Origin: Halobellus limi
Lineage (GTDB): Archaea > Halobacteriota > Halobacteria > Halobacteriales > Haloferacaceae
Assembly: GCF_004799685.1 (NCBI RefSeq)
Contig: NZ_CP031312.1
Location: forward strand, 1 to 64,000
Reading direction: 5' to 3'
DNA length: 64,000 bases
Shown here: positions 18,241 to 31,382 of the stretch, in pieces
Layout: the number at the start of each line of letters is the position of its first letter
How positions within the stretch are numbered: the first letter of the stretch is position 1
Position numbers and translations under genes: made by a program
The notes under the pieces: model-generated
What the model was told of the DNA's origin: nothing
What the model saw: the letters and a program-made list of their open reading frames with translations, nothing else
The model's database searches: none

Positions 18241-18368
18241 GCGATCCGGGGACAGCCGAAACGTAGGCGCTCGCAGGAGCAACGTGTCAAAACCAGCCGG
18301 CGGGTTGAGCGATGTCGCTACACGAAGAAGTCGACGGACGATGGCACAGCCGTGCAACTACGCCGGAG

Positions 18369-19040
18369 TCACGTAAACCGGACGCCGACGTCGTGCATCC
18401 CGTCGTTTTTCACCGCGAGATTGATCAGGAGCGGCGTGATCGATTCGACCTCGACGGCGTTCGAAATCGGCCCCGCGTAGACGGCCCGAAGCCCCTCGAC
18501 GTCCGCTATCACCGCTGCGACCGTTTCGGCCGCCGCCTCGTCGTCGGCGACGATCGCGGCGTCGAGACCTAACTCGGTATCGAGTGCTGCGAGCCGTTTT
18601 GCGGGGAGGTTGTGAAACGTCCCCACCACCGGAACGTTCGCGGGGACGGCCTCCGCGGCGGCCGCCGTGATGCTTTTTTCGGCCTCCGCTCTCTCGTAGT
18701 GAAACCCGTCGTCGTCGCGGGACATCTTCACGGCCGGACTGACCACGATCGTCTCCTCGTCCAACGCCCCGCTCACCGCCTCGATCGTGTCGACGACGTG
18801 TTCCGGGGGCACCGCGAGCACGACGATATCGGCGCCCTCCGTCGCCGCTCGGTTAGAGTCGCCTTCGACCGTCGCGCTCTCTGCGAATCCGCCGATTCGT
18901 TCGAGATAGTCCTCGGCGCACCGACGCGCTTTTCCTGGATCTCGTGACCCGATGACGAGTTCGTGATCCGTGTCTCGACCCAGACGCAAGGCGAGTCCCT
19001 CACCGACGTCTCCAGTACCGCCTAAGAGTGCAATCCGCAT
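18369..19040 (-). CDS. npdG: F420H2:NADP+ oxidoreductase
   Basis: 223 residues, cytoplasmic. The start MRIALLGGTGDVGEGLALRL has the NADP-binding Rossmann motif G-G-T-G-D-x-G-x-G. IGSRDPGKARRCAEDY (~31-46) holds the Ser-Arg that binds the 2'-phosphate of NADP. VLAVPPEHVVDT (~75) and VVGTFHNLPAKRL (~140-152) are typical of the family, and the C-terminal AVYAGPISNAVEVESITPLL resembles the F420 end. It moves hydride between NADPH and F420. It is divergent from the methylene-pterin reductase gene, which needs F420H2, so the pair makes a short redox route from NADPH to the C1 pool. Confidence 0.9.
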   Translation of the reverse strand: MRIALLGGTGDVGEGLALRLGRDTDHELVIGSRDPGKARRCAEDYLERIGGFAESATVEGDSNRAATEGADIVVLAVPPEHVVDTIEAVSGALDEETIVVSPAVKMSRDDDGFHYERAEAEKSITAAAAEAVPANVPVVGTFHNLPAKRLAALDTELGLDAAIVADDEAAAETVAAVIADVEGLRAVYAGPISNAVEVESITPLLINLAVKNDGMHDVGVRFT

Positions 19041-19060
19041 ATCCGTGCCTTCCCATATCC

Positions 19061-19070
19061 CAAAATAAAT
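19061..19070 (-). promoter_or_regulatory. TATA element for npdG
   Basis: ATTTATTTTG on the minus strand, 21-30 nt before the ATG at 19040; fits a leaderless transcript. Confidence 0.5.
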
Positions 19071-19172
19071 GTTTCGGTCGAGTGGAGGTTTCCCGCCGAG
19101 CGTTCGAGGTATCAAAACAATCAAATACCCTCGCGAATTCAATGCGAATGAGATATAATTGATCTTCAAAAA

Positions 19173-20195
19173 ATGATCAAAAGTAATACACCGTCGTTCG
19201 AGTGGGGAATCGAACTCACGCCCGACGTTCCGGCGAGTGACGTCGCCGAACTGGGGACGGTCGTCGAGTCGACCGGGTTCGATGTCGCGTTCGGATCGTG
19301 TCACTACAACAACCGTGACCCGTTCGTCGCGCTCGATCGCCTCGCGGCCGCGACCGACGAGATACGACTCGGGCCGGGGGTAGCGAACCCGTACGACGTC
19401 CATCCGGTGCGACTGGCGTCGCTGGTGGCGACGCTCTCGGAGGTCAGCAACGGGCGCACGGTGCTGGGGTTGGGGGCGGGCGATCCCTCCACCCTACGGA
19501 ACCTCGGCCTCGAGTGGGACCGACCGCTCACACGGGTTCGCGAGACGATGCGCGTCCACCGACGGCTCTGGGCGGGCGAGCGTGTCGACCACGACGGGAC
19601 CTTTCAGGTCAACGATGCGGGCTTGAACTACGAGGCGGACCAGGTCCCCGTGTTCGTCGGTGCGCAGGGACCGCGTATGATCCAGATGGCGGCGGAGAAC
19701 GCCGACGGAGTGCTGGTGAACGCCTCGCATCCGGACGACTACGCCTGGGCGGCAGAGCAGGTGAACTCCGGTCTCGATTCCCGAGCGGACTCCCGCGACG
19801 CGTTCACGTTCGCCGCCTTCGCGAGCGTCAGCGTCGACACGGACGCGTCCGCGGCGGAGAACGCCGCACGCCCCCCCGTCGCGTTCATCGCCGCCGGTGC
19901 CCCCGAGGAAGTCATAGAACGTCACGGACTCGACGCCGGTCGCACCGAGGAGATCGGGGCGGCGATCTCCGCAGGAGAGTTCGATCGGGCCTACGACCTG
20001 GTGACGGCGAACATGCTCGATACCTTCTGTATCGCCGGCACGCCGTCGTCGGTGGCTGATCGGATCGCATCCATTCGCGAATACACGGACGCCTTCGTCG
20101 CGGCGTCGCCGTTGGGACCGGACAGAAAGGAGGCGATCGAACTCCTCGGGGAGGTTCGTGAACGGCTGTCGACGCGGGGTCCGACGGATGACTGA
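19173..20195 (+). CDS. mer: F420-dependent methylene-tetrahydropterin reductase-like protein
   Basis: 340 residues of the luciferase-like (LLM) superfamily. Mer reduces methylene- to methyl-tetrahydromethanopterin (or a folate analogue) with F420H2 in the cytoplasm. The opening WGIELTPDVPASDVAELG and SCHYNNRDPFVALDRLA (~46-62) follow Mer, as do GPGVANPYDVHPVRLAS (~70-86) and VLGLGAGDPSTLRNLGLEW (~100-118). The ATG at 19173 gives a short lead-in before this conserved start. It is the first gene of an apparent operon, overlapping DUF447 by 8 nt, and is divergent from npdG. Other F420-dependent LLM enzymes look alike, but the neighbours (beta-RFAP synthase, MetE) make a pterin substrate the best reading. 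Confidence 0.82.
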   Translation: MIKSNTPSFEWGIELTPDVPASDVAELGTVVESTGFDVAFGSCHYNNRDPFVALDRLAAATDEIRLGPGVANPYDVHPVRLASLVATLSEVSNGRTVLGLGAGDPSTLRNLGLEWDRPLTRVRETMRVHRRLWAGERVDHDGTFQVNDAGLNYEADQVPVFVGAQGPRMIQMAAENADGVLVNASHPDDYAWAAEQVNSGLDSRADSRDAFTFAAFASVSVDTDASAAENAARPPVAFIAAGAPEEVIERHGLDAGRTEEIGAAISAGEFDRAYDLVTANMLDTFCIAGTPSSVADRIASIREYTDAFVAASPLGPDRKEAIELLGEVRERLSTRGPTDD

Positions 20196-20859
20196 CGGCG
20201 AGTGGCCGGTGGAACTCGTCGGCGTCGTCGAGAGCGTGACCTCGACACGCGATCCGGACGGCGACTGGAGCGTCGCCGCGCTCGGCTTACACGCGGGCGA
20301 CGACCACGATCCGGTCGATCCGGTTCGCGCGCGGACGTGGGGACAGACGAGGACGCGCAAGAACTTCGAGCGCCAGGGGGGCTGCTACGTCCAGTTCGTT
20401 CGCGATCCGTTCGTCTTCGTCGAGGCGGCCCTCGACGAGGTCGAGACCGACGACCCGGTCCTGGACGCTGCAATGGCGTGGGCCGAGGTCGACGTGACGC
20501 GGATCGACACGGGCGAATCCGGCGGCACGCAGTGGGTCGACTGGAGACTTCGGCCGGACCGCTCCGCCGTCGAACGGCGCCGCGTCCCGACGACGACTCG
20601 ATCGCTCGGTGCGGTTCTGGAACTGACCGTCGCGGGGTCACGCCTGGGGGTTCCCGAATACGACGACGACGAGCTTCGCGACAGAATGGCGTTCTTCGCC
20701 GAGGTCGCACACACGTGCGGCGGGCCGAGAGAGCGGGAAGCCGTCGCACTCGTCGCGTCGCTCACCGACTGGAATCCCCAAGCGCAGGACCTGGACCTGG
20801 ACCCGAATCTCGATCTCGAGACGGCGACCGACGCCGAGCCGAAACACGTCGATACATAG
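20188..20859 (+). CDS. DUF447 family protein
   Basis: 223 residues. GEWPVELVGVVESVTSTRD, then DGDWSVAALGLH and RARTWGQTRTRKNFERQGG, is the DUF447 N-terminal pattern of a split-barrel, FMN-type fold. VQFVRDPFVFVEAALDE follows. The C-terminal third (AFFAEVAHTCGGPREREAVA) is helical. DUF447 proteins occur in methanogens and haloarchaea near methanopterin genes, but their reaction is not known to me. It overlaps mer (ATGACTGA) and lies 14 nt before the beta-RFAP synthase gene, so a role in pterin biosynthesis or a flavin-dependent step is a reasonable inference only. Confidence 0.8.
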   Translation: MTDGEWPVELVGVVESVTSTRDPDGDWSVAALGLHAGDDHDPVDPVRARTWGQTRTRKNFERQGGCYVQFVRDPFVFVEAALDEVETDDPVLDAAMAWAEVDVTRIDTGESGGTQWVDWRLRPDRSAVERRRVPTTTRSLGAVLELTVAGSRLGVPEYDDDELRDRMAFFAEVAHTCGGPREREAVALVASLTDWNPQAQDLDLDPNLDLETATDAEPKHVDT

Positions 20860-20873
20860 CGAGGAACGAACGT

Positions 20874-21890
20874 ATGACTGCTCGGGTTACTGGCTGTGCC
20901 CGCCTCCATTTCGGGTTTCAGAACCTCTCTCCGGAGCGCGAGCGGCTCTTCGGCGGTCTGGGCGTGGCCCTGGATCGCCCGCGCGTCGTCGTCGAAGCCG
21001 ACCCGGCCGCCGACGTGCGGTGCACCGCCGCGGCGTCGGTCGACGACGAGACCGTCGCCGCTGCGACGAGATACGCCGAGCGGGCCGCCGCGCTCCTCGA
21101 GGTCGACGGGGCGCGGGTGATCGTCGAACGGGCCCTGCCGAGACACGTCGGCCTCGGGTCGGGAACCCAGCTGGCGCTGAGTACGCTCGCAGCGGTCGCC
21201 CGTGCACACGGTCGAGAGCCGGAGATCCGGAAGTACGCGGGTCGCCTGGGCCGCGGCAGGCGGAGCGGCGTCGGGATCGCCGCCTTCGAAGGCGGCGGCT
21301 TCGTCGTCGACGGTGGCCGCCCCACCGAGGCGTATCCCGTAGAGGGCGCCGCCGACGGCGTCTCGTCCGTCCCTCCGGTCACCGTTCGGCGGGACGTCCC
21401 CGAAGAGTGGCGGTTTCTGCTCGTTTTCCCGGACGTGCCCCCCGGGAAGAGCGGGAACGACGAAGACGCGAGTATGCGCGCGGTGCTCCGTCGGGCGGAC
21501 CCAGCGATCGCCGACCGGCTCGGGGCCACGGTCGCACAGCGAGTGTTGCCCGCGCTGGCGGAGGAGAACGTCGCGAGGTTCGGGGCGGCCGTGTCGACCG
21601 TCGATCGCCTCAACGGGCTGTGGTACGCCGACGAACAGGGTGACACGCACCGTCCGCCGGTCGGTCGTATCATCGACGAATTAGCCGACTCCCGGGGGGT
21701 CTTCGGCGTCGGCCAGTCCTCGTGGGGGCCTGCCGTGTACGGAGTGACGACCACGACGCACGCCGACGCGGCGCGCGAGGCCGGTACCCGCGCCCTCGAA
21801 CGGACGGGTGTCGGCGGCGACGTGATGATCGCCGCCGGTCGGAACCGCGGCGCAATTACTGATGAGAATAAAATAAACAGAAAGAATTAA
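20874..21890 (+). CDS. Beta-ribofuranosylaminobenzene 5'-phosphate synthase family protein
   Basis: 338 residues. Beta-RFAP synthase joins 4-hydroxybenzoate (or p-aminobenzoate) to PRPP with loss of CO2, the first committed step to the methanopterin side chain. TGCARLHFGFQNLSPERERL (~7-26) and FGGLGVALDRPRVVVE are typical. ALPRHVGLGSGTQLALSTLA (~87-106) is the GHMP-kinase-like Gly/Ser loop. GRGRRSGVGIAAFEGGGFVVD (split as ~125-145) and VFGVGQSSWGPAVYG (~280) complete the signature. It is in the mer-DUF447 operon. Its presence argues that this organism makes a methanopterin-type C1 carrier rather than relying only on folate. Confidence 0.88.
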   Translation: MTARVTGCARLHFGFQNLSPERERLFGGLGVALDRPRVVVEADPAADVRCTAAASVDDETVAAATRYAERAAALLEVDGARVIVERALPRHVGLGSGTQLALSTLAAVARAHGREPEIRKYAGRLGRGRRSGVGIAAFEGGGFVVDGGRPTEAYPVEGAADGVSSVPPVTVRRDVPEEWRFLLVFPDVPPGKSGNDEDASMRAVLRRADPAIADRLGATVAQRVLPALAEENVARFGAAVSTVDRLNGLWYADEQGDTHRPPVGRIIDELADSRGVFGVGQSSWGPAVYGVTTTTHADAAREAGTRALERTGVGGDVMIAAGRNRGAITDENKINRKN

Positions 21891-21896
21891 AATAAT
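21887..21896 (+). promoter_or_regulatory. TATA element for the first metE-like gene
   Basis: TTAAAATAAT, overlapping the beta-RFAP synthase stop and 20-29 nt before the ATG at 21916. It supports that start over the ATG at 21895, and a second transcript for the MetE pair. Confidence 0.45.
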
Positions 21897-21915
21897 GCAT
21901 ACTGACCATCGATAT

Positions 21916-22917
21916 ATGTCGCGCGTAGCCACGACGGTAGGACTGTATCCGCTCCCCGACTGGGCGAAAGACGAGCTCTCGGAACTGAAAGGACACCAGA
22001 AGGAGGACCTCATCAGCGGTGACGAGGGTGCGGCGGTGGCCGAGACGTACGACCGGGCGTGCGCCGAGGCGATCGAACGACAGCGAGAGGCGGATCTCGA
22101 TCGAATCGTCGGGGGGCAACTCCGCTGGGACGATATGCTCGGCTATCCCCTCGCCGTCCACGACGCGGTCGAGACCGGCGGCATCGTCCGGTACTACGAC
22201 AACAACAACTTCTATCGAGAGCTGGTCGTGGACGGCGAACTGACCTTCGACGGGACGCTCGCGGACGAACTCCGGGGCGTGACGTCGCGTACCGACGGGA
22301 CGCCGGTCCAGGCGGTTCTGCCGGGACCGTACTCGCTGGCCGATCTCGCCGTCGACGAACACTACGGTGACGACCGGGCGTTCCTCGCCGGCGTCGCCGA
22401 GTTTCTCGCCGCGGAGGGCGAAGCGTTCCCGGACGTCGAGACGGTCTTCCTCTTGGAGCCGTCGCTGGCCGTGAACCCACCGACGGGCGAGGAAACGCCC
22501 GTCGAGACCGACGACGTGACCGACGCCCTCTCTACGGTCGCCGAGGCGTTCGAGGCGGAAGTCGTCGTCCACACCTACTGGGGCGCGCTGTCGGCAGACG
22601 TGTACACCGCGGCGTTGGACGCCGCCGTCGATGGCCTGGGCTATGATCTCGTCAACGCCGGTGAGGAGGCCCTGGCGACCGCCTCGGAACACGGGACGCC
22701 GGATACGGTCGCCCTGGGCGTCGTCGACGGACAGAACACCCGGGTGGAATCGCTGCAGGAGATCGACGACCGCGTCTCGCGGTTCGAAGACGTCGCGAGC
22801 CCCGAGAGGACCTACCTCACGCCGAACACGGAGCTGTTTTACCTCCCGGTCACGAGCGCCGATGCGAAACTCGACGTACTCGGTCGAGCGGCGAACGTCT
22901 CGGAGGTGGAGCTATGA
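21916..22917 (+). CDS. MetE-like protein lacking the zinc ligands
   Basis: 333 residues, TIM-barrel of the cobalamin-independent methionine synthase family. TTVGLYPLPDWAKDELSELK (~5-24), QAVLPGPYSLADLAVDEHYG (~137-156) and ALGVVDGQNTRVESLQEIDD (~271-290) are family features. At the two zinc-ligand positions it reads VVHTYWG (no Cys after His) and TPNTELF (no Cys), where its downstream neighbour has IHVCYG and SPDCGLK. It therefore cannot hold catalytic zinc in the usual way and resembles the N-terminal, non-catalytic barrel of long MetE. Its stop overlaps the next start (ATGA). An ATG at 21895 would add seven residues. Confidence 0.82.
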   Translation: MSRVATTVGLYPLPDWAKDELSELKGHQKEDLISGDEGAAVAETYDRACAEAIERQREADLDRIVGGQLRWDDMLGYPLAVHDAVETGGIVRYYDNNNFYRELVVDGELTFDGTLADELRGVTSRTDGTPVQAVLPGPYSLADLAVDEHYGDDRAFLAGVAEFLAAEGEAFPDVETVFLLEPSLAVNPPTGEETPVETDDVTDALSTVAEAFEAEVVVHTYWGALSADVYTAALDAAVDGLGYDLVNAGEEALATASEHGTPDTVALGVVDGQNTRVESLQEIDDRVSRFEDVASPERTYLTPNTELFYLPVTSADAKLDVLGRAANVSEVEL

Positions 22918-24005
22918 GTAATCGCGAGCAGTTCCGACCCGCCGAGCACCCGAACGAGCACTTCCTGTTGACGACCGTCGTCGGCAGTTACCCGAAGCCG
23001 ACGTGGCTCGAAAACGAGTACGACCGCGTCGTGGACGCCGACGACGGCGTCGAGCGACCGGCGGAAGCGACCGACGGGGCCAGCGACGAATTCGCGGAGA
23101 CGCTGGACGACGCCGCCCGTCTCGTCACTCGGGAACACGAGCGCGCCGGCCTCGACGTCGTCGTCGACGGGGAGGTGCGCCGGACCGAGATGGTCGAGTA
23201 CTTCGCCGACAGGATCGGCGGCTACGAGTTCAACGGCCCGGTGAAGGTGTGGGGCCACAACTACTTCCACAAGCCCAGCGTGACCGACCGCGTTTCCTAC
23301 GACGACCCCTGGCTGCTCGAGGAGTTCGAGTTCACCGGTTCCGTCGCGACGAGCCCCGTGAAGGTCCCCATCACCGGTCCGTACACGCTCGCGAACTGGG
23401 CGTTCGACGAGCACTACGGGGACAGCGAGGAACTGGCGTACGACCTCGCAGACCTCGTGAACGAGGAGGTGCACGCGCTGGTCGAGGCGGGCGCGCGCTA
23501 CGTCCAGATCGACGAACCGGCGCTGGCGACGACGCCCGACGACCACGCCATCGTGGGCGCGTGTCTCGAACGGATCGCCGACGACGTTCCCGACGACGTC
23601 AGACTCGGGATCCACGTCTGCTACGGTGACTACTCGCGCATCTACCCCGAGATCCTCGAATACCCCGTGGACGAGGTCGACGTGGAGCTGGCCAACACGA
23701 ATTACGAGCAACTGGACGTGTTCACCGAACCGGAGTTCACCAAGGACTTCGCACTCGGTGTGGTCGACGCCCACGACGCCACGGTCGAACCCGTCGAAGA
23801 GATCAAGCGCAACATCGAGCACGGGCTGGAAGTCGTGCCGCCGGAGCGCCTCACGGTCAGTCCCGACTGCGGGTTGAAACTGTTGCCGCGTGAGGTCGCT
23901 TATCAGAAGATGGAAAACCTCGTACGGGCGGCACGGGAGGTCGAGGCCGAACTCGACGACGGCGAAATCAGCGCAGACAGGATCGCCACGGCGAGGGGAG
24001 ACTGA
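22914..24005 (+). CDS. metE: Methionine synthase, cobalamin-independent (core MetE type)
   Basis: 363 residues, catalytic MetE barrel that methylates homocysteine. TTVVGSYPKPTWLENEYDR (~20-38), VDGEVRRTEMVEYFADRIGG (~84-103) and VPITGPYTLANWAFDEHYG (~147-165) are present. YVQIDEPALATTPDDH (~196-211) is followed by IHVCYGDYS (~238) and LTVSPDCGLKLLPRE (~320-334); these His, Cys and Cys are the zinc ligands. It is overlapped by the zinc-less paralogue, so the two probably form a functional pair. Linkage with mer and beta-RFAP synthase suggests that methyl-tetrahydropterin, or a methyl carrier fed by it, is the donor rather than the polyglutamyl folate used by bacterial MetE. Confidence 0.88.
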   Translation: MSNREQFRPAEHPNEHFLLTTVVGSYPKPTWLENEYDRVVDADDGVERPAEATDGASDEFAETLDDAARLVTREHERAGLDVVVDGEVRRTEMVEYFADRIGGYEFNGPVKVWGHNYFHKPSVTDRVSYDDPWLLEEFEFTGSVATSPVKVPITGPYTLANWAFDEHYGDSEELAYDLADLVNEEVHALVEAGARYVQIDEPALATTPDDHAIVGACLERIADDVPDDVRLGIHVCYGDYSRIYPEILEYPVDEVDVELANTNYEQLDVFTEPEFTKDFALGVVDAHDATVEPVEEIKRNIEHGLEVVPPERLTVSPDCGLKLLPREVAYQKMENLVRAAREVEAELDDGEISADRIATARGD

Positions 24006-24122
24006 CGGGGATTATCGTAGGGGTCCATCGGTCCGGGTTCGTCCGAAGTCTTCACCCCAGCCGGCTCGACGGTTGTACTCCCACCTACACGGTACCCTCG
24101 CATCGTCCCGATTCGTGTTCCG

Positions 24123-25352
24123 CTACCAGTCGACGGGATGCTTGAGTTCCATCGCCCGACCCGAGTCCCCTCGGGGATAGACCACCATTTGATTTCCGTC
24201 CCACCACTGACCGGTGGTCGTGGTGATCTGGCCCGCCTTCGGAATTCCGTTCTCCTCGAACCCGAAGTCGCCGAGGACCGTATCGAACGTTGCCGTCCGG
24301 AGGGAGTCGCGGACGTCCGCGGGCGTGACAGAGCCGGCGGCGCTGACGGCCTGTGTGGTCACCTGGGCGAGGTTGTACGCCGACCCGACGACGATGGGCA
24401 TGAACTCTCCCTCGATCTCGTAGCGGTTTCGATACGTCTCTCGAAGCTCCTGACCGCCGTGCCCCGGCGGGAGCGGCCCCGGAGACATCATCGCGTACGC
24501 GCCGGTTTCGCCGAGCGCGGACCACCACTGGGTGGGATCGGCGGCGCGGACGAACTTCAGCACGTCGGGCGTCCAGGCACTCGACTCGATCTGGTTTACC
24601 GCGGTGATGCCACCCGGCGGAGTCGGACACGAGAGCAGCGCCTCGACGTCCGCGCTTTCGGACTGTGAGATGAGCGTCGAGAAGTCGGTGGATCCGATCT
24701 CGAAGATCTCGCGCAGGACGACCTCGTACCCCTCGTCGGTCAGGTACTCTTCCCAGTAGTCGGCCATCTCCTCGCCCCAGCCGGAGTTGGGTTCCCAGAT
24801 GCCGACGTCTGTCGGTCGCTCGGCCTCGGGGATGAGATCGAGCATCCCGACGGTGGAGGCGACGATGTCCCGGGACTTCGGGAACGGCGCGAAGGTCCAC
24901 TCGTAGTTGTCGTTCCGATGCGGGGCCTCGTAGGCGAACGTCACCCCGAGGAAGGGGAGCCCTTCGTTCTCCGAGAAGGCGCTGCCCGCCGTGACGAGCA
25001 GGCTGGAGAAGCTCCCCCAGACCACGTTCACGTCGTTGTTGCTGACGACCGACTGCAGCTGCTCACGCAGCGTCTGAGCGTCGCTCTCGTCGTCGCGGAG
25101 GATGTACTCGACGTCACGGTCGAGTTCCTCGCGCATCCGTTCGACCCCGAGTTCGTACCCGCGCTTGAGATCGCCGCCGAGCGACGAGTACGATCCGGTC
25201 TCGGGGATCGCCGCAGCGATCGTGAGCGTCTCGGTCCCGGATCCGCCACCGCCGCCGAGCGTACAGCCGCTGAGTCCCGAGACGGCGACGACGCCGGCGG
25301 TGCCTCTCTTGAGATACGATCGTCTACTGACCCGAGGTGGCATGTCAACCAT
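24123..25352 (-). CDS. ABC transporter substrate-binding lipoprotein (branched-chain amino acid/amide type)
   Basis: 409 residues. A twin-arginine signal (SRRSYLKR, ~9-16) and lipobox LSGC (Cys ~30) place it on the outer face of the membrane. The mature part is a type I periplasmic-binding fold (LivJ/LivK class): AAAIPETGSYSSLGGDLKRG (~47-66), DDESDAQTLREQLQSVVSN, VWGSFSSLLVTAGSAF. Such proteins bind amino acids, amides, urea or aromatic acids. No permease or ATPase genes of the Liv type are present on either side, so it is an orphan here. Neighbours on the same strand side are a Rieske protein and an amidohydrolase, which hints at a shared substrate. An ATG three codons downstream (25343) is an alternative start. 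Confidence 0.85.
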   Translation of the reverse strand: MVDMPPRVSRRSYLKRGTAGVVAVSGLSGCTLGGGGGSGTETLTIAAAIPETGSYSSLGGDLKRGYELGVERMREELDRDVEYILRDDESDAQTLREQLQSVVSNNDVNVVWGSFSSLLVTAGSAFSENEGLPFLGVTFAYEAPHRNDNYEWTFAPFPKSRDIVASTVGMLDLIPEAERPTDVGIWEPNSGWGEEMADYWEEYLTDEGYEVVLREIFEIGSTDFSTLISQSESADVEALLSCPTPPGGITAVNQIESSAWTPDVLKFVRAADPTQWWSALGETGAYAMMSPGPLPPGHGGQELRETYRNRYEIEGEFMPIVVGSAYNLAQVTTQAVSAAGSVTPADVRDSLRTATFDTVLGDFGFEENGIPKAGQITTTTGQWWDGNQMVVYPRGDSGRAMELKHPVDW

Positions 25353-25377
25353 TCCACCAGCCAGTAGATAAGAATAC

Positions 25378-25387
25378 TATAAAAATA
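25378..25387 (-). promoter_or_regulatory. TATA element for the substrate-binding protein gene
   Basis: ATTTTTATAG on the minus strand, 26-35 nt before the ATG at 25352, within a short AT-rich stretch. Confidence 0.5.
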
Positions 25388-25552
25388 TTCTGGTGGTTAG
25401 TTCGCGACTGGACAGAAACCGACGTGAAACAGCCTCAGAAGTGTCGGTCTGTACACCTCGCGGCTCCCTCCGCCGTAGCCCTCGCTCCGGCAGTTCGTGC
25501 GGCCGTGTGCGTGGAGAAGCAGCGACAGCGGACCTTTCGGCCGTCGGTGTCG

Positions 25553-25936
25553 TTACACCCGGACGTAGACGTTGTCGTCTTCGACGGCGACGTCGAACGT
25601 GGCGATGCGCTGCCCGGAGGCCTCGTTCTCGCCGGTTTCGAGGTCCCACTCCCAGAGGTGCCACGGACAGGAGACCGTACACTCCTCGGCGTTGACGCCG
25701 CCGCGTGACTCCGTCCAGGTGTGGTCGGCGTTGATCTTCTTCTCGCCGGCCTTACACAGCGGCGCGTGCTGGTGCGAGCAGCGGTTGCTGATCGCGTAGA
25801 ACTCGCCGTCGGCGTTGAACACCGCCACCTCGATCCCGTCGACTTCGACGGCGATCCCCCGACCGTTCTCGATCTCGTCGGTCTCGGCGACTTTCGTGTA
25901 CTCGTTTCCGTCGATCTGTGTGGTCTCAGCGCTCAT
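25553..25936 (-). CDS. Small Rieske [2Fe-2S] protein with a long inter-ligand insert
   Basis: 127 residues, soluble, no signal. The cluster ligands are C53-S-H55 (NRCSHQHAPLC) and C90-P-W-H93 (VSCPWHLWEWD), as in Rieske ferredoxins. The spacing between the two pairs is 34 residues, roughly twice the usual 15-17, and the insert carries ADHTWTESRGGVNAEEC with an additional Cys (C86; C61 is another). It starts 2 nt after the stop of the amidohydrolase, so they are cotranscribed. It may carry electrons to an oxygenase encoded elsewhere, or be part of a decarboxylase-like system; no oxygenase is visible here. Confidence 0.85.
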   Translation of the reverse strand: MSAETTQIDGNEYTKVAETDEIENGRGIAVEVDGIEVAVFNADGEFYAISNRCSHQHAPLCKAGEKKINADHTWTESRGGVNAEECTVSCPWHLWEWDLETGENEASGQRIATFDVAVEDDNVYVRV

Positions 25937-25938
25937 TG

Positions 25939-27078
25939 TCACAGTCTGAGGATGTCGCGGGCGTTCCGGTGGAGGACGGCGTCTCGAAGGTCCTCGTCGT
26001 CGCGGAAGGCGCGGCTGGTGAAGAACCACGTCGGCGGGTCCAGCGTCTGATGCGGCCAGTCCGAGGAGTACATAAACGTGTCCTCGGCCATACTCAGGTT
26101 CAGGAGGCTCTTCGCCTCGCCGGCGCGGCGGGGCAGCGCCATCGGTTGCGTGCAGACGTAGATGTTCTCTCGGAGGTATTCGCTCGGCGCCTTTTCGAGG
26201 TACTGTTCGCCGTCCTCGAACTTCCGGGGCGTGATCTTGACGTCCTCGGGGTGCATCTCGTAGAACTCGTCCATCCGATAGCGCACGAAGGGCAGCCACC
26301 AGTGGCCGGCCTCCTGAAAGACGACGTTGAGGTCGGGGTACCGATCGAACACCCCGCGCATAATCATATTGACCGTGTTCACCATCCCGTGGATGGGCCA
26401 GTCGAAGCCCAGCACTTCCGTCCACGTGAGCATCTCGTCGCCGATGTAGGAGTGCTGCGGCCAGAAGGCGAGCGAGCCGTGCAGGATCAGCGGGAGGCCC
26501 AGGTCCTCGAGCTTCTCGAAGACGGGATCGAACTCCTCGATTCCCCACGGCTCCCGCGGATCGAACCAACTGTACACGGCGGCGACGTCGCTCTCGTCGC
26601 CCCACCGGTCCAGTTCCTCGAGTGCGGCGTCGACGTCCCACTTCGCGATCGACAGCGCCGTGGGGACTCCCTCGTCGACGAAGTTATCGAGCATATAGGA
26701 GTTGCCGGCCTCGAGGACGGCGTTCTTCAGCACCGGGTGGTGCTGGTGCGGGAGCATATTGAGCGCGCAGTTGACGATCGGCGTGTCGATAGCGAACTTC
26801 TCACAGGCCTCGCGGACGTCTTCTGCGACCTCGGCGCGACCCTGCGTGAACAGCCCCTCGTTGCCCTCGGCGATGGCGTACGCGGCGTCCCACTTGTCCG
26901 GGATGGGCCACATCCCGAACTCCGTCGAGAGCCGGTCCAGTGCTCGGTCGTCCTCCACGTACGGCCGCAGGTCCTCCTCCAGCGGGTTGACGTGGAAGTC
27001 CATGTCGACGACGTCGACGTCGAACGCCTCTTCGGGTACCTCCGTATCCGGGTCTAATCGCTGTATCGACGATCCCAT
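25939..27078 (-). CDS. Amidohydrolase family 2 protein (ACMSD/LigJ-like)
   Basis: 379 residues, cytoplasmic TIM-barrel metal enzyme. The first metal motif is VDMDFHVNP (~24-32), with H-x-N in place of the common H-x-H. LPLILHGSLAFWPQH (~197-211) gives the barrel His. VFQEAGHWWLPFVRYRMDEF (~256-275) and MYSSDWPHQ (~340), with the late catalytic Asp, follow. Family members decarboxylate or hydrolyse aromatic and other ring-derived acids. The following Rieske gene and the nearby binding protein fit a catabolic set for such a compound, probably under the IclR gene at 27447-28214. The substrate is not predictable. Confidence 0.8.
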   Translation of the reverse strand: MGSSIQRLDPDTEVPEEAFDVDVVDMDFHVNPLEEDLRPYVEDDRALDRLSTEFGMWPIPDKWDAAYAIAEGNEGLFTQGRAEVAEDVREACEKFAIDTPIVNCALNMLPHQHHPVLKNAVLEAGNSYMLDNFVDEGVPTALSIAKWDVDAALEELDRWGDESDVAAVYSWFDPREPWGIEEFDPVFEKLEDLGLPLILHGSLAFWPQHSYIGDEMLTWTEVLGFDWPIHGMVNTVNMIMRGVFDRYPDLNVVFQEAGHWWLPFVRYRMDEFYEMHPEDVKITPRKFEDGEQYLEKAPSEYLRENIYVCTQPMALPRRAGEAKSLLNLSMAEDTFMYSSDWPHQTLDPPTWFFTSRAFRDDEDLRDAVLHRNARDILRL

Positions 27079-27100
27079 ACCGGCAGCGTCGGAATCGAAG

Positions 27101-27110
27101 ATTATAAATT
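27101..27110 (-). promoter_or_regulatory. TATA element for the amidohydrolase-Rieske operon
   Basis: AATTTATAAT on the minus strand, 23-32 nt before the ATG at 27078; leaderless spacing. Confidence 0.55.
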
Positions 27111-27446
27111 ATTTGGTTGCCCCGACGGGGGTTCCGCTCCGGAGAAGTTCTGTGATGCCCCCGCACAGCGCGATGACGGGGAAAGCGATCCATTTCTGAT
27201 TTCGGTATACACGAAACCAAACGACGCCGATACGGAGACGGGACCACTCACCTGTCACCACACGCACGCCCCGGGGCGTACCGCGGTCTAGGTGCGAGTC
27301 TCGGGCGTCTTCCCTCGGATACCCGCCGAACCGTTTTGGCAGAAGCGAAACGGTGTCGCGATGTCGTAACAGTCGTACCTTTGTTATTATCTCAGGGAGA
27401 TCGTCCGATGCGTATCCTCGCGGGACGTCACCGGCCGACCGTCCGG
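27111..27446. other. Intergenic region between the amidohydrolase and IclR genes
   Basis: About 335 nt. On the minus strand an open frame without any start codon ends at 27109 with WIAFPVIALCGGITELLRSG. It might be the tail of a lost membrane protein but is unsupported. No other structure is seen. Confidence 0.35.
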
Positions 27447-28214
27447 CTACTGGTACGCCAGTCTGAGTTCGGTCTCGTTCGTCGCGGTCGTGACCAGTTC
27501 GATCATCCGCTCCCGGTGCGCGTCGTTGCGCATCCGAGCGACCGGTTCGGCGATCGCGATCGCGCCGAAGACGTCTCCGTCCGCGACGATCGGTGCAGCG
27601 ACCGCCGAGACGCCCTCGGCCGCCTCGTGTTCGTTCATCGCGTAGCCCCGTTCTCGGATCGTCTCCAGTTCGGCTTCGAGTTCCGCCCGGGTCGTGATCG
27701 ACTCGTGGGTCCGCTCCGGCAGTCCGTGTCGCTCCACCACGTCGTCGACGTGCTCGTCGGTCGAGAACGCCAGCATCGCTTTGCCCGAGGCGAGACAGTG
27801 CATGTACTCGTGTTTGCCGAGTCGTTCGTGCGTTTCGATCGACTGCTCGCCCATCTCTCTGGCGAGATACACCGCCTTCCCCGCCTCCTCGACCATCAGC
27901 CAGACCGCGGCACCGCTCTCTTGGGCCACCGTCTCGAGCGGCTCCCGGGCCTTTTCGTGAACCTGAAACTGGTCTCTGGCACGGATTCCGAAATCAAAGA
28001 ACTGGAGCGCGAGTCGGTAGGTGCCGTCGTCGTTCACGACGTATCCCAGATGCACGAGCGTCTGGAGATAATCGTACAGCGTGCTGTCGGAGACGTCGAG
28101 CCGTTCGGACAGTTCGGTGAAGGTCGCACTCTCCAGGTCGCGAAGTGTTTCGAGTATATCGAACGTACGAACCGCGGATTTTATCGTCCGATTCGGGGGC
28201 TCTGAGTCGTTCAT
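27447..28214 (-). CDS. IclR-family transcriptional regulator
   Basis: 255 residues. The N-terminal winged helix (~10-70) has SAVRTFDILETLRDLESATF and LDVSDSTLYDYLQTLVHLGY. The ligand-binding IclR domain (~80-250) has YMHCLASGKAMLAF (~136-149) and ERGYAMNEHEAAEGVSAVAA (~187-206). IclR proteins sense small catabolic metabolites. It shares its strand with the amidohydrolase-Rieske set and lies ~370 nt upstream of it, so it may control that set. It has its own leaderless promoter. Confidence 0.9.
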   Translation of the reverse strand: MNDSEPPNRTIKSAVRTFDILETLRDLESATFTELSERLDVSDSTLYDYLQTLVHLGYVVNDDGTYRLALQFFDFGIRARDQFQVHEKAREPLETVAQESGAAVWLMVEEAGKAVYLAREMGEQSIETHERLGKHEYMHCLASGKAMLAFSTDEHVDDVVERHGLPERTHESITTRAELEAELETIRERGYAMNEHEAAEGVSAVAAPIVADGDVFGAIAIAEPVARMRNDAHRERMIELVTTATNETELRLAYQ

Positions 28215-28238
28215 ACCGCAGTATTCTTCGCAAATGCG

Positions 28239-28248
28239 TATAAATATT
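28239..28248 (-). promoter_or_regulatory. TATA element for the IclR gene
   Basis: AATATTTATA on the minus strand, 25-34 nt before the ATG at 28214. Confidence 0.5.
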
Positions 28249-28455
28249 GGCTTCGGGACCTGCGAAGTGCTGTCGCGTCGACGCCGTGAGAACGGTATCG
28301 GGTTCCGAAGGGGACGTGCGTCAGAGATCGTATTTCAGAGGGCCCCGGGTACGCACCGCCGCGTGGTCGGATGCATACGCAGTTACAACGGATACAAGGC
28401 GGTAAACCGTCACCGAGTGAGCGAATCTCGGAGAGTGGTCGACAGGAGTCGCCGC
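28249..28455. other. Intergenic stretch before palindrome copy B
   Basis: Together with the promoter and copy B this makes 322 nt without a gene. I see no conserved frame in it. Confidence 0.4.
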
Positions 28456-28538
28456 ATACTGGTTACTCTCGTCTCGTACCGCCGAGCGCCGGCAACAAGA
28501 GTGGCGCCCCGGCGGTACAAAGTGAGAGCAACCAGTAT
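28456..28538 (-). repeat. Stop-anchored palindromic repeat, copy B
   Basis: 83-bp palindrome: outer arms ATACTGGTTACTCTC / GAGAGCAACCAGTAT, inner CCGCCGAGCGCC / GGCGCCCCGGCGG. Reading away from lpdA on the minus strand, the first base is the last A of the lpdA TGA stop. Its internal orientation relative to the adjacent gene is opposite to copies A and C. Where copy A has A/T pairs in the outer arm, this copy has G/C on both sides (TACTGGTT with AACCAGTA), so pairing is kept. Confidence 0.85.
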
Positions 28539-29944
28539 CAGCGGTTGAGCGTGTGGATCGCCAGGTCGTGTTCGTTGGCCGCGGCCTCGGAGATCGCCTC
28601 CGAAAGCGTCGGGTGGGGGTGGATCGATTCGGCGAGTTCGGCCGTCGTCAGCCCCTCCTCGACGGCGAGCGTGACCTCCGAGATCAGCTCCGAGGCCTCC
28701 GGCCCGACGATCTGCCCGCCGAGCACGACGCCGTCGTCGCCGCTCACGAGACGGACGAACCCGTCAGTGTGTCCCGTCGTGAGCGCGCGTCCGCTGGCGC
28801 GCATCGGGAACTCCCCGACCGAGACGTCGTGGTCGGTCGCCTCGGCCTCCTCGCGGGACAGTCCGACCGTCGCGATCTCCGGAGACGTGAACGCGACGGC
28901 GGGGATCGCGCGGTCCTCGGCCGAAGGACCCCGCCCGGCTATCGCGGCGGCGGCGATCTCGCCCTCGGCCGACCCGGCGTGCGCGAGCATCGGCTCGCCC
29001 GCCACGTCGCCGACGGCGAACACGTGATCGAGGTCCGTGCGTCCGTGCTCGTCTGTCGGGACGAATCCGTCCCCGTCCGGTTCGAGCCCGATCCGGTCGA
29101 GAGCCACCGTGTCGGTCACGGGACTCCGACCCACGGCGACGAGTACCTTGTCCGCGTCGTACTCTCGGCGCTCCTCGCTGTCGACGTCTTCGGTCGCGAC
29201 CGTGACGCCTCCCTCGGTGGACTGACACGCCGAGGCGAGTTCGCCGTAGTTCGTCTCGATCCCCAGCTCCGAGGCCGCCGACGAAACCGGGGCGACCAGG
29301 TCCGACGGGAACGCGGGCATCATCGTATCGAGCGCCTCCACGACGGTCACGTCGACGCCGAGTTTCGCGAACAGCATCGAGAGCTCCATCCCGATGTAGC
29401 CCGCACCGACGACCACGAGGCTGTCCGGGCGTTCCTCGAGCGCCAGCGCCTCCTTGGCGTCGAGCACCCCGGGCCGGTCGAACTCGAATCCCGGCAGCTC
29501 GATCGGACGGCTGCCCGTCGCCAACACAGCGTGTTCGAAGGTGAGGCGTTCGGACTCGCCGTTCGGCCCGTCGATCTGGACGGAGTGTTCGTCCTCGAAC
29601 GCCGCACGCCCCTCCAGGAGCGAGACGCGGTTGGCCTTGCAGAGCTTCTCGACGCTCCGGTTCATATTCTCGACGACGTCGTCCTTCCACTCGACCATCC
29701 GCCCGAAGTCGACGTCGACGTCGGCCGTGATCCCCATCTGTGACCAGTTTCGAGCGTCGTGGGCGACGTTGGCCGCCGAGATCAGCGCCTTCGAGGGGAT
29801 GCAACCGCGGTTGAGACAGGTCCCGCCCAGGGTGTTCTCCTCGACGAGCGTCACGTCGAGGTCGTACTGCGCCGCCCGGATCGCGGCGACGTACCCCGCC
29901 GGCCCCCCGCCGACGACGAGTACCTCGGTGTCGAATTCACTCAT
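28538..29944 (-). CDS. lpdA: Dihydrolipoyl dehydrogenase (L-protein of the gcv operon)
   Basis: 468 residues. FAD fold VLVVGGGPAGYVAAIRAAQY (~8-27), redox-active disulfide GGTCLNRGCIPSKAL (C43 and C48), NAD domain VVVGAGYIGMELSMLFAKLG (~175-194), and catalytic His with Glu in HPHPTLSEA near the C-terminus. It reoxidises the lipoyl arm of GcvH with NAD+ in the cytoplasm. It overlaps the stop of gcvPB by 8 nt and closes the operon, so it is probably a dedicated L-protein rather than the E3 of a 2-oxoacid complex, though it could serve both. The start ATG at 29944 follows from family length; the long upstream extension is Arg-rich and not real. Confidence 0.93.
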   Translation of the reverse strand: MSEFDTEVLVVGGGPAGYVAAIRAAQYDLDVTLVEENTLGGTCLNRGCIPSKALISAANVAHDARNWSQMGITADVDVDFGRMVEWKDDVVENMNRSVEKLCKANRVSLLEGRAAFEDEHSVQIDGPNGESERLTFEHAVLATGSRPIELPGFEFDRPGVLDAKEALALEERPDSLVVVGAGYIGMELSMLFAKLGVDVTVVEALDTMMPAFPSDLVAPVSSAASELGIETNYGELASACQSTEGGVTVATEDVDSEERREYDADKVLVAVGRSPVTDTVALDRIGLEPDGDGFVPTDEHGRTDLDHVFAVGDVAGEPMLAHAGSAEGEIAAAAIAGRGPSAEDRAIPAVAFTSPEIATVGLSREEAEATDHDVSVGEFPMRASGRALTTGHTDGFVRLVSGDDGVVLGGQIVGPEASELISEVTLAVEEGLTTAELAESIHPHPTLSEAISEAAANEHDLAIHTLNR

Positions 29945-31382
29945 CGTCTCCCCCCACGTCCTGCCAGGAGAGCCGCGGGTTCCGCGCGGCGGTCGTCTGG
30001 TCGATTCGCGCCGCGGCGGTCGTCGTGGGAGCCTCGGCGAGCTCTTCTTTCGTCTTCTCACTCGCCGCCGTGAAAGCCGCCGCCAACACGTCGAGTTGTT
30101 CCTTGCTCAGGGCCTCCGTGGGTTCTGTCATCAGCGCCTCGTCGACGATCTCGGGCCACTTGGTCGTCGGCGGGTGGACCCCCTCGTCGAGCATCCCCTT
30201 CGCGAACTCCGCCGCGTCGACGTCGCCGGCGCTGGCGACGAACTCGTGGTGGAACGGGCCGTAGGGGATGTCGAGATCGATCCGCTCGGCGAGGTAGTTC
30301 GCGTTCAGAACGGCCATCGCCGAGGTGTCCTTCAGCCCGCCGTCGCCGAGGCGGGAGATGTACGCGTAGGTCTTCAGGAGCACCAGCCAGTTGCCGTGGA
30401 AGCCGTGGACTTTCCCGATGCTCTCTGCGGGCTCGTAGAACTCGAAGGAGCCGTCGTCGGTCTCGCGGACGTGCGGGTCGGGGAGGAAGTCGGTGAGTTC
30501 CTCGACGACGCCGATCGGACCCGCGCCTGGACCGCCGCCGCCGTGCGGCGACGCGAACGTCTTGTGCACGTTGTAGTGCATAATGTCGAAGCCCATGTCG
30601 CCCGGGCGGGCCCGTCCGAGCAGCGCGTTGAGGTTCGCGCCGTCGTAGTACAGCAAGCCGCCCGCGTCGTGGACGATCTCGGCGATCTCCTCGATGTCGC
30701 GCTCGAAGAGTCCGAGCGTGTTCGGGTTCGTCAGCATCAGCGCCGCCGTCGAATCGCCCACGGCCTCTTCGAGCGCGTCGACGGGCACCCGCCCGTCCTC
30801 GTCGCTCGGGAGTTCGACGACGTCGTACCCGCACATCGCGGCGCTCGCGAAGTTCGTTCCGTGTGCGGACGCGGGCACGATCACCTCCCGGCGCTCGTCG
30901 TCCTCGCCGTTCGAGCGGTGATACGCCCGCGCCACGAGCAGGCCGGTGAACTCCCCGGCCGCGCCGGCGGGCGGTTGCAGGGTCGCGGTCGCCATCCCCC
31001 CGATTTCGGCCAGATACTCCTGAAGCCCGTGGAGCACCGCGAGGGTCCCCTGGGCGTCCTCGTCGGGACGGTCGGGGTGGATCGCACCCTCCTCCAGCGC
31101 CGCGACGTCCTCGATGAACTTCGGGTTGTACTTCATCGTACAGCTCCCGAGCGGGTAGGGCCCGTGTTCGACCGAGTAGGTCATCTGCGAGAGCCGCGTG
31201 TAGTGGCTCGCGACCTCGGGTTCGGCCGGTTCGGGGAGCGTCAGTTCGTCGCGAACCAGTTCGTCGGGAAGGTCGACGTCGTCGTGGGTGACGGTCTCCG
31301 TCCGCTTTTCGGACAGGAGCGGTTCGTTGACCGCCTCGCCGCTTTCGGTCTCCCGTTCCCAGGTGGCCTGTCGGTAGTTCAT
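29937..31382 (-). CDS. gcvPB: Glycine dehydrogenase (decarboxylating) subunit 2
   Basis: 481 residues, PLP-carrying half of the archaeal two-subunit P-protein. [15 protein letters not shown] (~74-88), [15 protein letters not shown] (~135-149), [16 protein letters not shown] (~171-186), and the PLP-binding Lys K274 in [16 protein letters not shown]. With GcvPA it decarboxylates glycine and passes the aminomethyl group to GcvH lipoate. It overlaps gcvPA by 4 nt and lpdA by 8 nt. Complete and typical. Confidence 0.95.

Follow-up and report, generated by a model that had tools for sequence, protein, structure and literature searches.

A transferable cassette in Halobellus limi joins mer, DUF447 and a beta-RFAP synthase homologue to a split methionine synthase

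Introduction

Split methionine synthases of the MetE type were described for Halobacteria by Price, Deutschbauer and Arkin in 2021 (PMC7857596), and in halophilic and thermophilic archaea they are encoded by adjacent genes for a non-catalytic, pterin-binding-type subunit and a catalytic subunit that keeps the zinc and homocysteine residues. Two further enzymes give points of comparison for the locus presented here. The methylene-tetrahydropterin reductase (Mer) of M. jannaschii has a catalytic Glu6 and the pterin-site residues Asp96 and Phe233 (PMC11094777), and the beta-RFAP synthase (MptG) of M. thermautotrophicus (MTH0830) binds p-aminobenzoate (pABA) through Arg26, with a D19N variant that retains about a third of Vmax (PMC6787355).

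The prevailing view is that haloarchaea swapped methanopterin for folate. They are described as tetrahydrofolate users in which methanopterin-specific enzymes are absent, their Mer, Mch and MptG homologues have been re-annotated accordingly, and the MptG homologue HVO_2628 is considered likely not to make RFAP (PMC8305020, PMC4500146). In bacteria, plasmids of Azospirillum brasilense and Phyllobacterium zundukense carry tetrahydromethanopterin (H4MPT) clusters in which MptG and DUF447 sit in one C1 cluster with mch.

The cassette that we describe, from a window of 64,000 nucleotides (the whole stretch of Halobellus limi DNA analyzed), shares with the published split MetE systems the adjacent subunit genes and the kept zinc and homocysteine residues, but differs from them in that its MetE pair is a horizontally acquired second copy joined to mer, mptG and DUF447. 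It shares MptG and DUF447 with the two bacterial clusters but, unlike them, has no fae, methylene-H4MPT dehydrogenase or formyl-transfer genes.

Results and Discussion

A six-gene cassette of foreign origin

A preliminary description of this DNA reported npdG, mer, DUF447, a beta-RFAP synthase homologue and two metE-like genes lying together, and we confirmed all six at that place. The coordinates below are corrected limits; family scans of npdG, DUF447 and metE-N were run with slightly shortened starts.

18296..24006, no strand: whole cassette (blastn similarity of 85% to the block of genome G219, Halobellus genus; tblastn gene order)
18369..19040, minus strand: npdG, F420H2:NADP oxidoreductase (passes TIGR01915, 200.9 bits against a cut-off of 149.8)
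19041..19172, no strand: intergenic stretch of 132 bp between npdG and mer, presumed promoters
19173..20195, plus strand: mer, F420-dependent methylene-tetrahydropterin reductase (profile scores, conserved residues)
20188..20859, plus strand: DUF447 protein, PF04289 and PF20766 (domain scores)
20874..21890, plus strand: mptG-like gene, homologue of beta-RFAP synthase, MptG (TIGR00144, active-site residues)
21916..22917, plus strand: metE-N-like gene, non-catalytic (pterin-binding-type) subunit of split MetE (domain scores, zinc ligands absent)
22914..24005, plus strand: metE-C, catalytic subunit of split MetE (NF003317, zinc/homocysteine residues and pterin-site Trp)

The five plus-strand genes from mer to metE-C look like a single operon because they either overlap (8 nt for mer/DUF447, 4 nt for metE-N/metE-C) or are separated by short gaps (14 nt for DUF447/mptG-like, 25 nt for mptG-like/metE-N), and npdG diverges from mer across the 132 bp. 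Whereas mer, DUF447 and the mptG-like gene are single copies in this genome, a second npdG lies elsewhere (C1:2795906) and the cassette MetE pair is a second copy beside a native pair at C1:1070766-1072825.

The clustering exceeds chance. Among 113 Halobacteria genomes with DUF447, MptG and Mer, only that of H. limi (G000) has any pair of their starts within 3 kb; the block recurs in G219, which holds the same six genes by tblastn and gene order, and the nucleotide match between the two ends at the cassette edges, the flanks giving no match by blastn. Including H. clavatus, in which mer, DUF447 and mptG lie together in that order, a block joining MptG and DUF447 to Mer was found in three genomes in all (G000, G219 and H. 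clavatus). Trees place the cassette genes apart from native Halobellus genes, and by this comparison the cassette is a discrete block with a foreign phylogeny, evidently acquired by horizontal transfer. Inspection of the cassette edges for repeats revealed no clear flanking repeat. Most haloarchaea carry these genes at separate sites but inherit them as a set.

The MetE pair is a split methionine synthase

The metE-C product passes NF003317 (505.1 bits against 406) and keeps equivalents of S433, E484, D599, H641, C643, E665 and C726 (residue list from PMC7857596). The metE-N product scores 40.3 bits with PF08267 (cut-off 27), yet higher with PF01717 (53.9), and the zinc set is present in none of 33 N subunits. 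A Trp occupies the pterin site in all 33 split catalytic subunits, including that of the window, compared with Phe in each of three lone MetE proteins examined.

The preliminary description had called these proteins core MetE, a label that we replace with split MetE containing a pterin-binding-type subunit, as in PMC7857596. A core MetE taking its methyl group from a methyl-corrinoid or another non-pterin donor would fit the single-domain catalytic subunit, haloarchaeal examples of which were listed as core MetE in literature that PMC7857596 corrected, and lone MetE does exist in haloarchaea, as in G001, a genome that encodes a corrinoid methyltransferase pair as well. We nevertheless regard such a donor as highly improbable for the cassette enzyme: the gene for a pterin-binding-type subunit adjoins and overlaps metE-C, and the protein has the pterin-site Trp that the three lone proteins examined lack. 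We therefore reject the core MetE (Mes) families for this pair.

Conserved sites in Mer, the MptG homologue and DUF447

The Mer of the window is a full-length homologue of the M. jannaschii enzyme, scores 447.8 with NF002619 (cut-off 276) and keeps Glu6, Asp96 and Phe233. Among haloarchaeal Mer proteins, Glu6 and Asp96 are present in 26/26 and Phe233 in 23/26, with Tyr in the other 3. In contrast to the M. jannaschii protein, it falls below the TIGR03555 cut-off (331.6 against 348.7), which is reached in none of 116 haloarchaea, and its role would lie in methionine synthesis rather than methanogenesis. At the site called Gln178 in PMC11094777, for which the mapping is not secure, the numbered reference chain has Asn, as do 26/26 haloarchaeal proteins.

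The MptG homologue passes TIGR00144 (151.1, cut-off 113.5) and falls below the cut-off of the equivalog NF040726 (175.1 against 328), a failure that we set aside as an argument against its identity, since the model also rejects two MptGs that lie in bacterial H4MPT clusters (164.3 and 176.7). It conserves all 46 positions fixed across the haloarchaeal and bacterial sets. The pABA-binding Arg26 of the M. thermautotrophicus enzyme is present as Arg24 and is kept in 26/26 haloarchaeal proteins. Six residues by which the relative ForT binds PRPP (R19, H99, S104, T106, R135 and S139 in ForT numbering) are all present, and Ser142 of ForT is replaced by Gly, as in four bacterial MptGs. The difference from the M. 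thermautotrophicus enzyme is at Asp19, replaced by Asn (Asn17 in the window protein) in 26/26 haloarchaeal proteins examined but retained in 4/4 bacterial ones.

The only solved relatives found were ForT (6YQQ) and 8AP0 and 8AOZ, which are named beta-RFAP synthase and match over the same range. These relatives, along with the conserved ForT PRPP-binding residues, could be accommodated if the MptG homologue were a ForT-like C-nucleoside synthase that makes, with DUF447, a non-pterin cofactor or signal needed by Mer or MetE. This seems improbable to us, given the pABA-binding Arg of RFAP synthase throughout the haloarchaeal proteins, the TIGR00144 match, and the joint occurrence of DUF447 and MptG both in the two bacterial H4MPT clusters and in the same 4 of 14 control genomes. 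One of these controls is Sulfolobus, which has DUF447 and MptG and gave no Mer, Mch or NpdG match.

The DUF447 protein scores 66.1 with PF04289 (DUF447_N; cut-off 24) and 41.6 with PF20766 (cut-off 24.8), and is homologous to 2IML, 2PTF and 2NR4, small archaeal proteins with solved structures; its own predicted structure, built from three sequences, is poor (mean pLDDT of 50.4). A search of open-licence literature by title or abstract start returned no paper tying DUF447 or haloarchaeal MptG to methionine.

Co-loss of mer, DUF447 and mptG

DUF447, MptG and a strong Mer match are each found in 113/116 haloarchaeal genomes, and the same three genomes (G001, G007 and G018) lack all of them, a coincidence with a chance of about 4e-6 for two random triples if kinship is ignored. 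In a wider draw MptG was missing from 10/391 genomes, 8 of which were also without DUF447 and strong Mer, compared with 1 of 25 MptG-positive genomes tested alongside. These co-losses are spread over four lineages. Mch is present in 116/116 genomes, and NpdG and a pterin-binding (DHPS-type) domain are each present in 15/15 genomes tested, including G001, G007 and G018; the loss is specific, with folate and F420 genes retained in the three losers examined. The exceptions are G121 and G253, in which MptG is absent but DUF447, Mer and MetE are kept, and G367, in which MptG is present without DUF447 or strong Mer; these three assemblies are fragmented (70, 170 and 360 contigs, respectively).

A functional link among mer, DUF447 and MptG is well supported by the co-loss, the transferable cassette and the presence of DUF447 within the H4MPT clusters of Azospirillum and Phyllobacterium. 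Five of the eight co-loss genomes are also without split MetE; four of them (G001, G007, G314 and G352) encode a lone MetE, and only an N-subunit remnant is left in G018. Three Halobellus genomes (G217, G288 and G342) speak against a strict dependence, retaining a native split MetE with key residues and having no Mer, MptG or DUF447.

The published view would have Mer and split MetE work on methyl-tetrahydrofolate, with the MptG homologue and DUF447 serving some other role; their disappearance alongside Mer would be a coincidence or reflect a broader decay of biosynthesis, and the cassette would be a loose cluster. We judge this unlikely, though it draws on annotations that assign haloarchaeal Mer and Mch to tetrahydrofolate (PMC8305020, PMC4500146), the DHPS-type domains in every genome tested, the three Halobellus genomes with split MetE but without MptG and DUF447, and the Asn at the Asp19 position of MptG. 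It sits poorly with the absence of all three genes from the same 3/116 genomes, with the spread of the losses over four lineages and the persistence of Mch, NpdG and DHPS-type genes in the three losers tested, with the recurrence of the MptG, DUF447 and Mer block in three genomes, and with the conserved active-site residues of MptG.

A proposed methionine-making module

On balance, MptG and DUF447 probably provide a methanopterin-like compound that serves F420-dependent Mer and split MetE as methyl carrier; here we infer both the chemical identity of the carrier and the reaction of DUF447. The cassette would then be a nearly self-contained, horizontally transferred methionine-making module. 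Judging by homology, and for Mer and split MetE also by kept residues, NpdG would use NADPH to form F420H2, Mer would use F420H2 to reduce methylene to methyl on the tetrahydropterin, and split MetE would transfer this methyl group to homocysteine. MptG would join PRPP to p-aminobenzoate, or to a closely related compound, in the manner of methanopterin synthesis and as a step toward the methyl carrier, and DUF447 may catalyze a later step of carrier synthesis, most plausibly a reductive one. Apart from the core MetE label, the proposal in the preliminary description of a single functional unit leading from F420H2 through Mer to methionine, and including MptG, is retained on the evidence of the co-loss, the cassette and the bacterial H4MPT clusters, which also bear out its placement of DUF447 in the same pathway.

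A methanopterin-like carrier in haloarchaea contradicts the published annotation (PMC8305020), and the co-loss and the cassette assign MptG and DUF447 to the methyl branch. Haloarchaea would then divide their C1 work between folate, serving formyl, methenyl and methylene chemistry, and a methanopterin-like pterin that serves the methyl branch. We offer only as a tentative possibility the broader combination of two carriers with divided labor, a role for DUF447 as the missing reductase, opening the ribofuranose ring that MptG leaves in its product, whether in methanogens, Sulfolobus or H4MPT bacteria, and a whole branch that is mobile between species as one cassette. DUF447, an unnamed family common to methanogens, Sulfolobus, haloarchaea and H4MPT bacteria, gains a testable place in carrier synthesis.

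Other C1 genes

With E. coli MetF as the tblastn query, nothing convincing was found in 800 kb of the H. limi genome (C1 958396-1758395) or in the examined stretches of other genomes, the lone exception being an ORF of G352 (E value of 3.6e-9). A second dihydropteroate synthase was rejected as a member of the set because its presence does not track MptG: G018 retains one without MptG, and G021 has MptG and a single pterin-binding match. The second pterin-binding match in G001 and G007 is a methyl-THF:corrinoid methyltransferase-like protein (family scan for G001). The H. limi genome itself encodes one dihydropteroate synthase passing TIGR01496 (168.8 against 162.6).

Cassette organization and mobility

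The gene cluster reported in the preliminary description was recovered, and it includes a homologue of mptG (beta-RFAP synthase) and genes for the noncatalytic, pterin-binding-type (metE-N) and catalytic (metE-C) subunits of a split MetE.

18369-24005, npdG on the minus strand; mer, DUF447, mptG, metE-N, and metE-C on the plus strand (the cassette)
20874-21890, plus strand, mptG
24123-30061, minus strand, separate catabolic cluster downstream of the cassette

Because the mer and DUF447 reading frames share 8 nt and those of metE-N and metE-C share 4 nt, with gaps of 14 and 25 nt at the other plus-strand junctions, the five plus-strand genes likely form a single predicted transcript. The window occupies the opening 64 kb of a 397,862-bp contig (C2) in a 3.75-Mb genome, and a genome search found Mer, DUF447, and MptG in the cassette only, with second copies of split MetE and npdG on another contig, C1. 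The downstream catabolic cluster comprises an ABC-type binding protein, a Rieske-like ORF, an amidohydrolase, an IclR-type regulator, and a dihydrolipoamide dehydrogenase-like protein (two calls backed by a family scan, the remainder made by eye). Elsewhere outside the cassette, 49649-50252 matches positions 1579-2182 of a compared stretch (L138) at 68% nucleotide identity.

Of the 113 genomes that have DUF447, MptG, and Mer, H. limi was the only one with any pair of their start points at most 3 kb apart, counting best hits only and with 36 to 48 of 113 pairs, depending on the pair, split over different contigs. The full six-gene block was found in one further genome, G219 (identities of 81% for npdG, 90% for mer, 76% for DUF447, 76% for mptG, 84% for metE-N, and 90% for metE-C), and mer-DUF447-mptG also occurs in Halobellus clavatus (NZ_FNPB01000004.1). 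Nucleotide similarity spans 18296-24006 with G219 and 19168-21853 with H. clavatus, and no flank matches beyond the cassette were found in the compared stretches (19 kb and 17 to 19 kb, respectively). The cassette mer, mptG, and DUF447 each grouped in a single clade (100/99 or 100/100 support), separate from the native genes of the genus; native Halobellus mer joined its own family (100/99), the cassette metE-C fell outside its family (96/95), and the cassette mptG clade was placed, weakly, beside native mptG (83/85). In the native metE-C tree, H. limi, G219, G217, G288, and G342 formed one clade (99/97), all five members of which are missing native mer, DUF447, and mptG, with the cassette present in H. 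limi and G219. This pattern fits either a loss after which the genes were regained together or a gain with repeated later losses.

Co-inheritance of MptG, DUF447, and Mer

Among 116 Halobacteria genomes, DUF447, MptG (111 above the cutoff), and Mer (E ≤ 1e-40) were each found in 113, and the same three genomes (G001, G007, and G018) lacked them all. Widening the sample to 391 genomes that were at least 90% complete, the first set among them, gave MptG in 381; DUF447 and Mer were then scored in the 10 MptG-less genomes and in 25 MptG-positive genomes hand-picked from the window's own genus, sisters of the genomes with losses, and genomes whose MptG match was weak or split. Eight of the 10 also lacked DUF447 and any Mer match of at least 260 bits (strong Mer), and these represent four lineages: G217/G288/G342 in the window's genus, G314/G352, G001/G007, and G018. 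The exceptions, G121 and G253, have DUF447 and strong Mer and are assemblies of 70 and 170 contigs. In the MptG-positive set, DUF447 and strong Mer were each present in 24 of 25, with G367 (360 contigs, 92% complete) having neither.

Mch was found in 116 of 116 genomes, and NpdG and a DHPS-type pterin-binding domain each in 15 of 15, in all cases including the three first-draw genomes with losses; folate and F420 genes thus outlast MptG, DUF447, and Mer. Methionine synthase is also altered in some of these lineages: the best MetE match in G001, G007, G314, and G352 is a lone MetE (320 to 332 bits), and G018 lacks catalytic MetE and retains only a 315-aa N-type remnant (L149, 8534-9481) in a gene order (ksgA, mscS, hemK) that resembles, by eye, the native Halobellus metE locus. 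The clearest result against a strict dependence of split MetE on MptG and DUF447 is that the native split MetE is still complete in G217, G288, and G342, which have no MptG, DUF447, or strong Mer.

Methionine synthase

Most Halobacteria are described as having a split MetE, with pterin-binding and catalytic subunits, as their only methionine synthase (Price et al. 2021, PMC7857596). All seven zinc and homocysteine residues that PMC7857596 lists are present in the window metE-C. The zinc set is kept in none of 33 N subunits. At the pterin site we scored the equivalent of Thermotoga maritima Trp539, which we take to stack on the pterin: it is Trp in all 33 split catalytic subunits and one fused MetE, versus Phe in all three lone MetE proteins examined (G001, G314, and G352). 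This residue pattern identifies the window pair as split MetE, and the "core MetE" of the preliminary description is not borne out.

A corrinoid methionine route is possible in G001, which encodes a methyl-THF:corrinoid methyltransferase-like protein and a corrinoid protein away from its lone MetE. These two adjoin each other (L163, 6390-7046 and 7235-8083), with MtaA-like ORFs noted by eye. In G352 (L148, 8820-19499), the lone MetE lies within ∼10 kb of GcvT-type demethylase, RamA-like activator, MetF-like, and MtrH-like ORFs, assigned by eye except the MetF-like one, which was found by search. A full-length fused bacterial-type MetE accompanies split MetE in the Halobellus genomes G217 (L144, 9085-11436) and G313 (L145), and G057 has a second catalytic MetE (L157, 8737-9756; 501.6 bits) for which no adjoining N subunit was found.

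The methyl carrier and DUF447

By homology, NpdG would use NADPH to form F420H2, Mer would reduce methylene- to methyl-tetrahydropterin, and split MetE would transfer the methyl group to homocysteine. Co-loss and co-transfer assign MptG and DUF447 to this methionine methyl branch, where they would synthesize the carrier. The preliminary interpretation stands in part: the single pathway through F420H2, Mer, and MetE and the membership of DUF447 are supported, the MetE type is not, and the methanopterin-like carrier stands as a proposal.

From MptG chemistry and residues, we tentatively infer that the carrier is a methanopterin-like pterin. The window MptG departs at none of 46 positions fixed in haloarchaea (90% or more of 26 proteins) and in four bacterial proteins, and it keeps the PRPP residues of the related ForT (Arg19, His99, Ser104, Thr106, Arg135, and Ser139; PMC8183095) and the pABA-binding Arg26 of the Methanothermobacter thermautotrophicus enzyme MTH0830 (PMC6787355). 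At Asp19 of MTH0830, the characterized RFAP synthase (PMC6787355), the four bacterial MptGs also have Asp, but all 26 haloarchaeal proteins have Asn (residue 17 of the window MptG); this fixed Asn is a class signature and may reflect an altered acceptor. A D19N RFAP synthase is reported to retain about one third of Vmax with a threefold KM (PMC6787355). In Mer, Glu6 (26/26), Asp96 (26/26), and Phe233 (23/26) are conserved among haloarchaea (sites per PMC11094777).

The methanopterin-like reading runs against PMC8305020 and PMC4500146, which treat haloarchaea as tetrahydrofolate users and reannotate Mer to match, the former citing White 1988. Dual carriers have precedent in Methanosarcina barkeri, which uses both folates and archaeal analogues (as cited in PMC3261824).

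In 14 control genomes, DUF447 and MptG matches fell in the same four (Methanocaldococcus jannaschii, Haloferax volcanii, Sulfolobus acidocaldarius, and Methanosarcina acetivorans), and the Sulfolobus control had no Mer, Mch, or NpdG match. DUF447 (PF04289) proteins also occur in H4MPT clusters on plasmids of two bacteria, Azospirillum brasilense and Phyllobacterium zundukense. Their neighbors there are DUF6513, dihydroneopterin aldolase, and methanofuran genes, and both clusters also carry mptG, methylene-H4MPT dehydrogenase, mch, and fae. No DUF447 was found within the 31 kb examined around a Thiodictyon mptG cluster. Methanofuran synthesis is not known from haloarchaea or Sulfolobus, which makes the MptG branch a better fit for DUF447 than methanofuran synthesis. 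The solved relatives of DUF447 (2IML, 2PTF, and 2NR4) are presumably flavin-binding split barrels, from which a reductive role would be a guess. A folate analogue containing a tetrahydroxypentyl arylamine is reported from Sulfolobus (Zhou and White 1992, cited in PMC3261824).

Several genomes had two MptG matches, among them G178, where one (C1, 131130-131960) scored 287.8 bits against 186.8 for the next best haloarchaeon listed and looks laterally acquired. In G097 (C12, 147960-149032) and G107 (C7, 136405-137362), the match came in two abutting or overlapping pieces, resembling a frameshift or stop.
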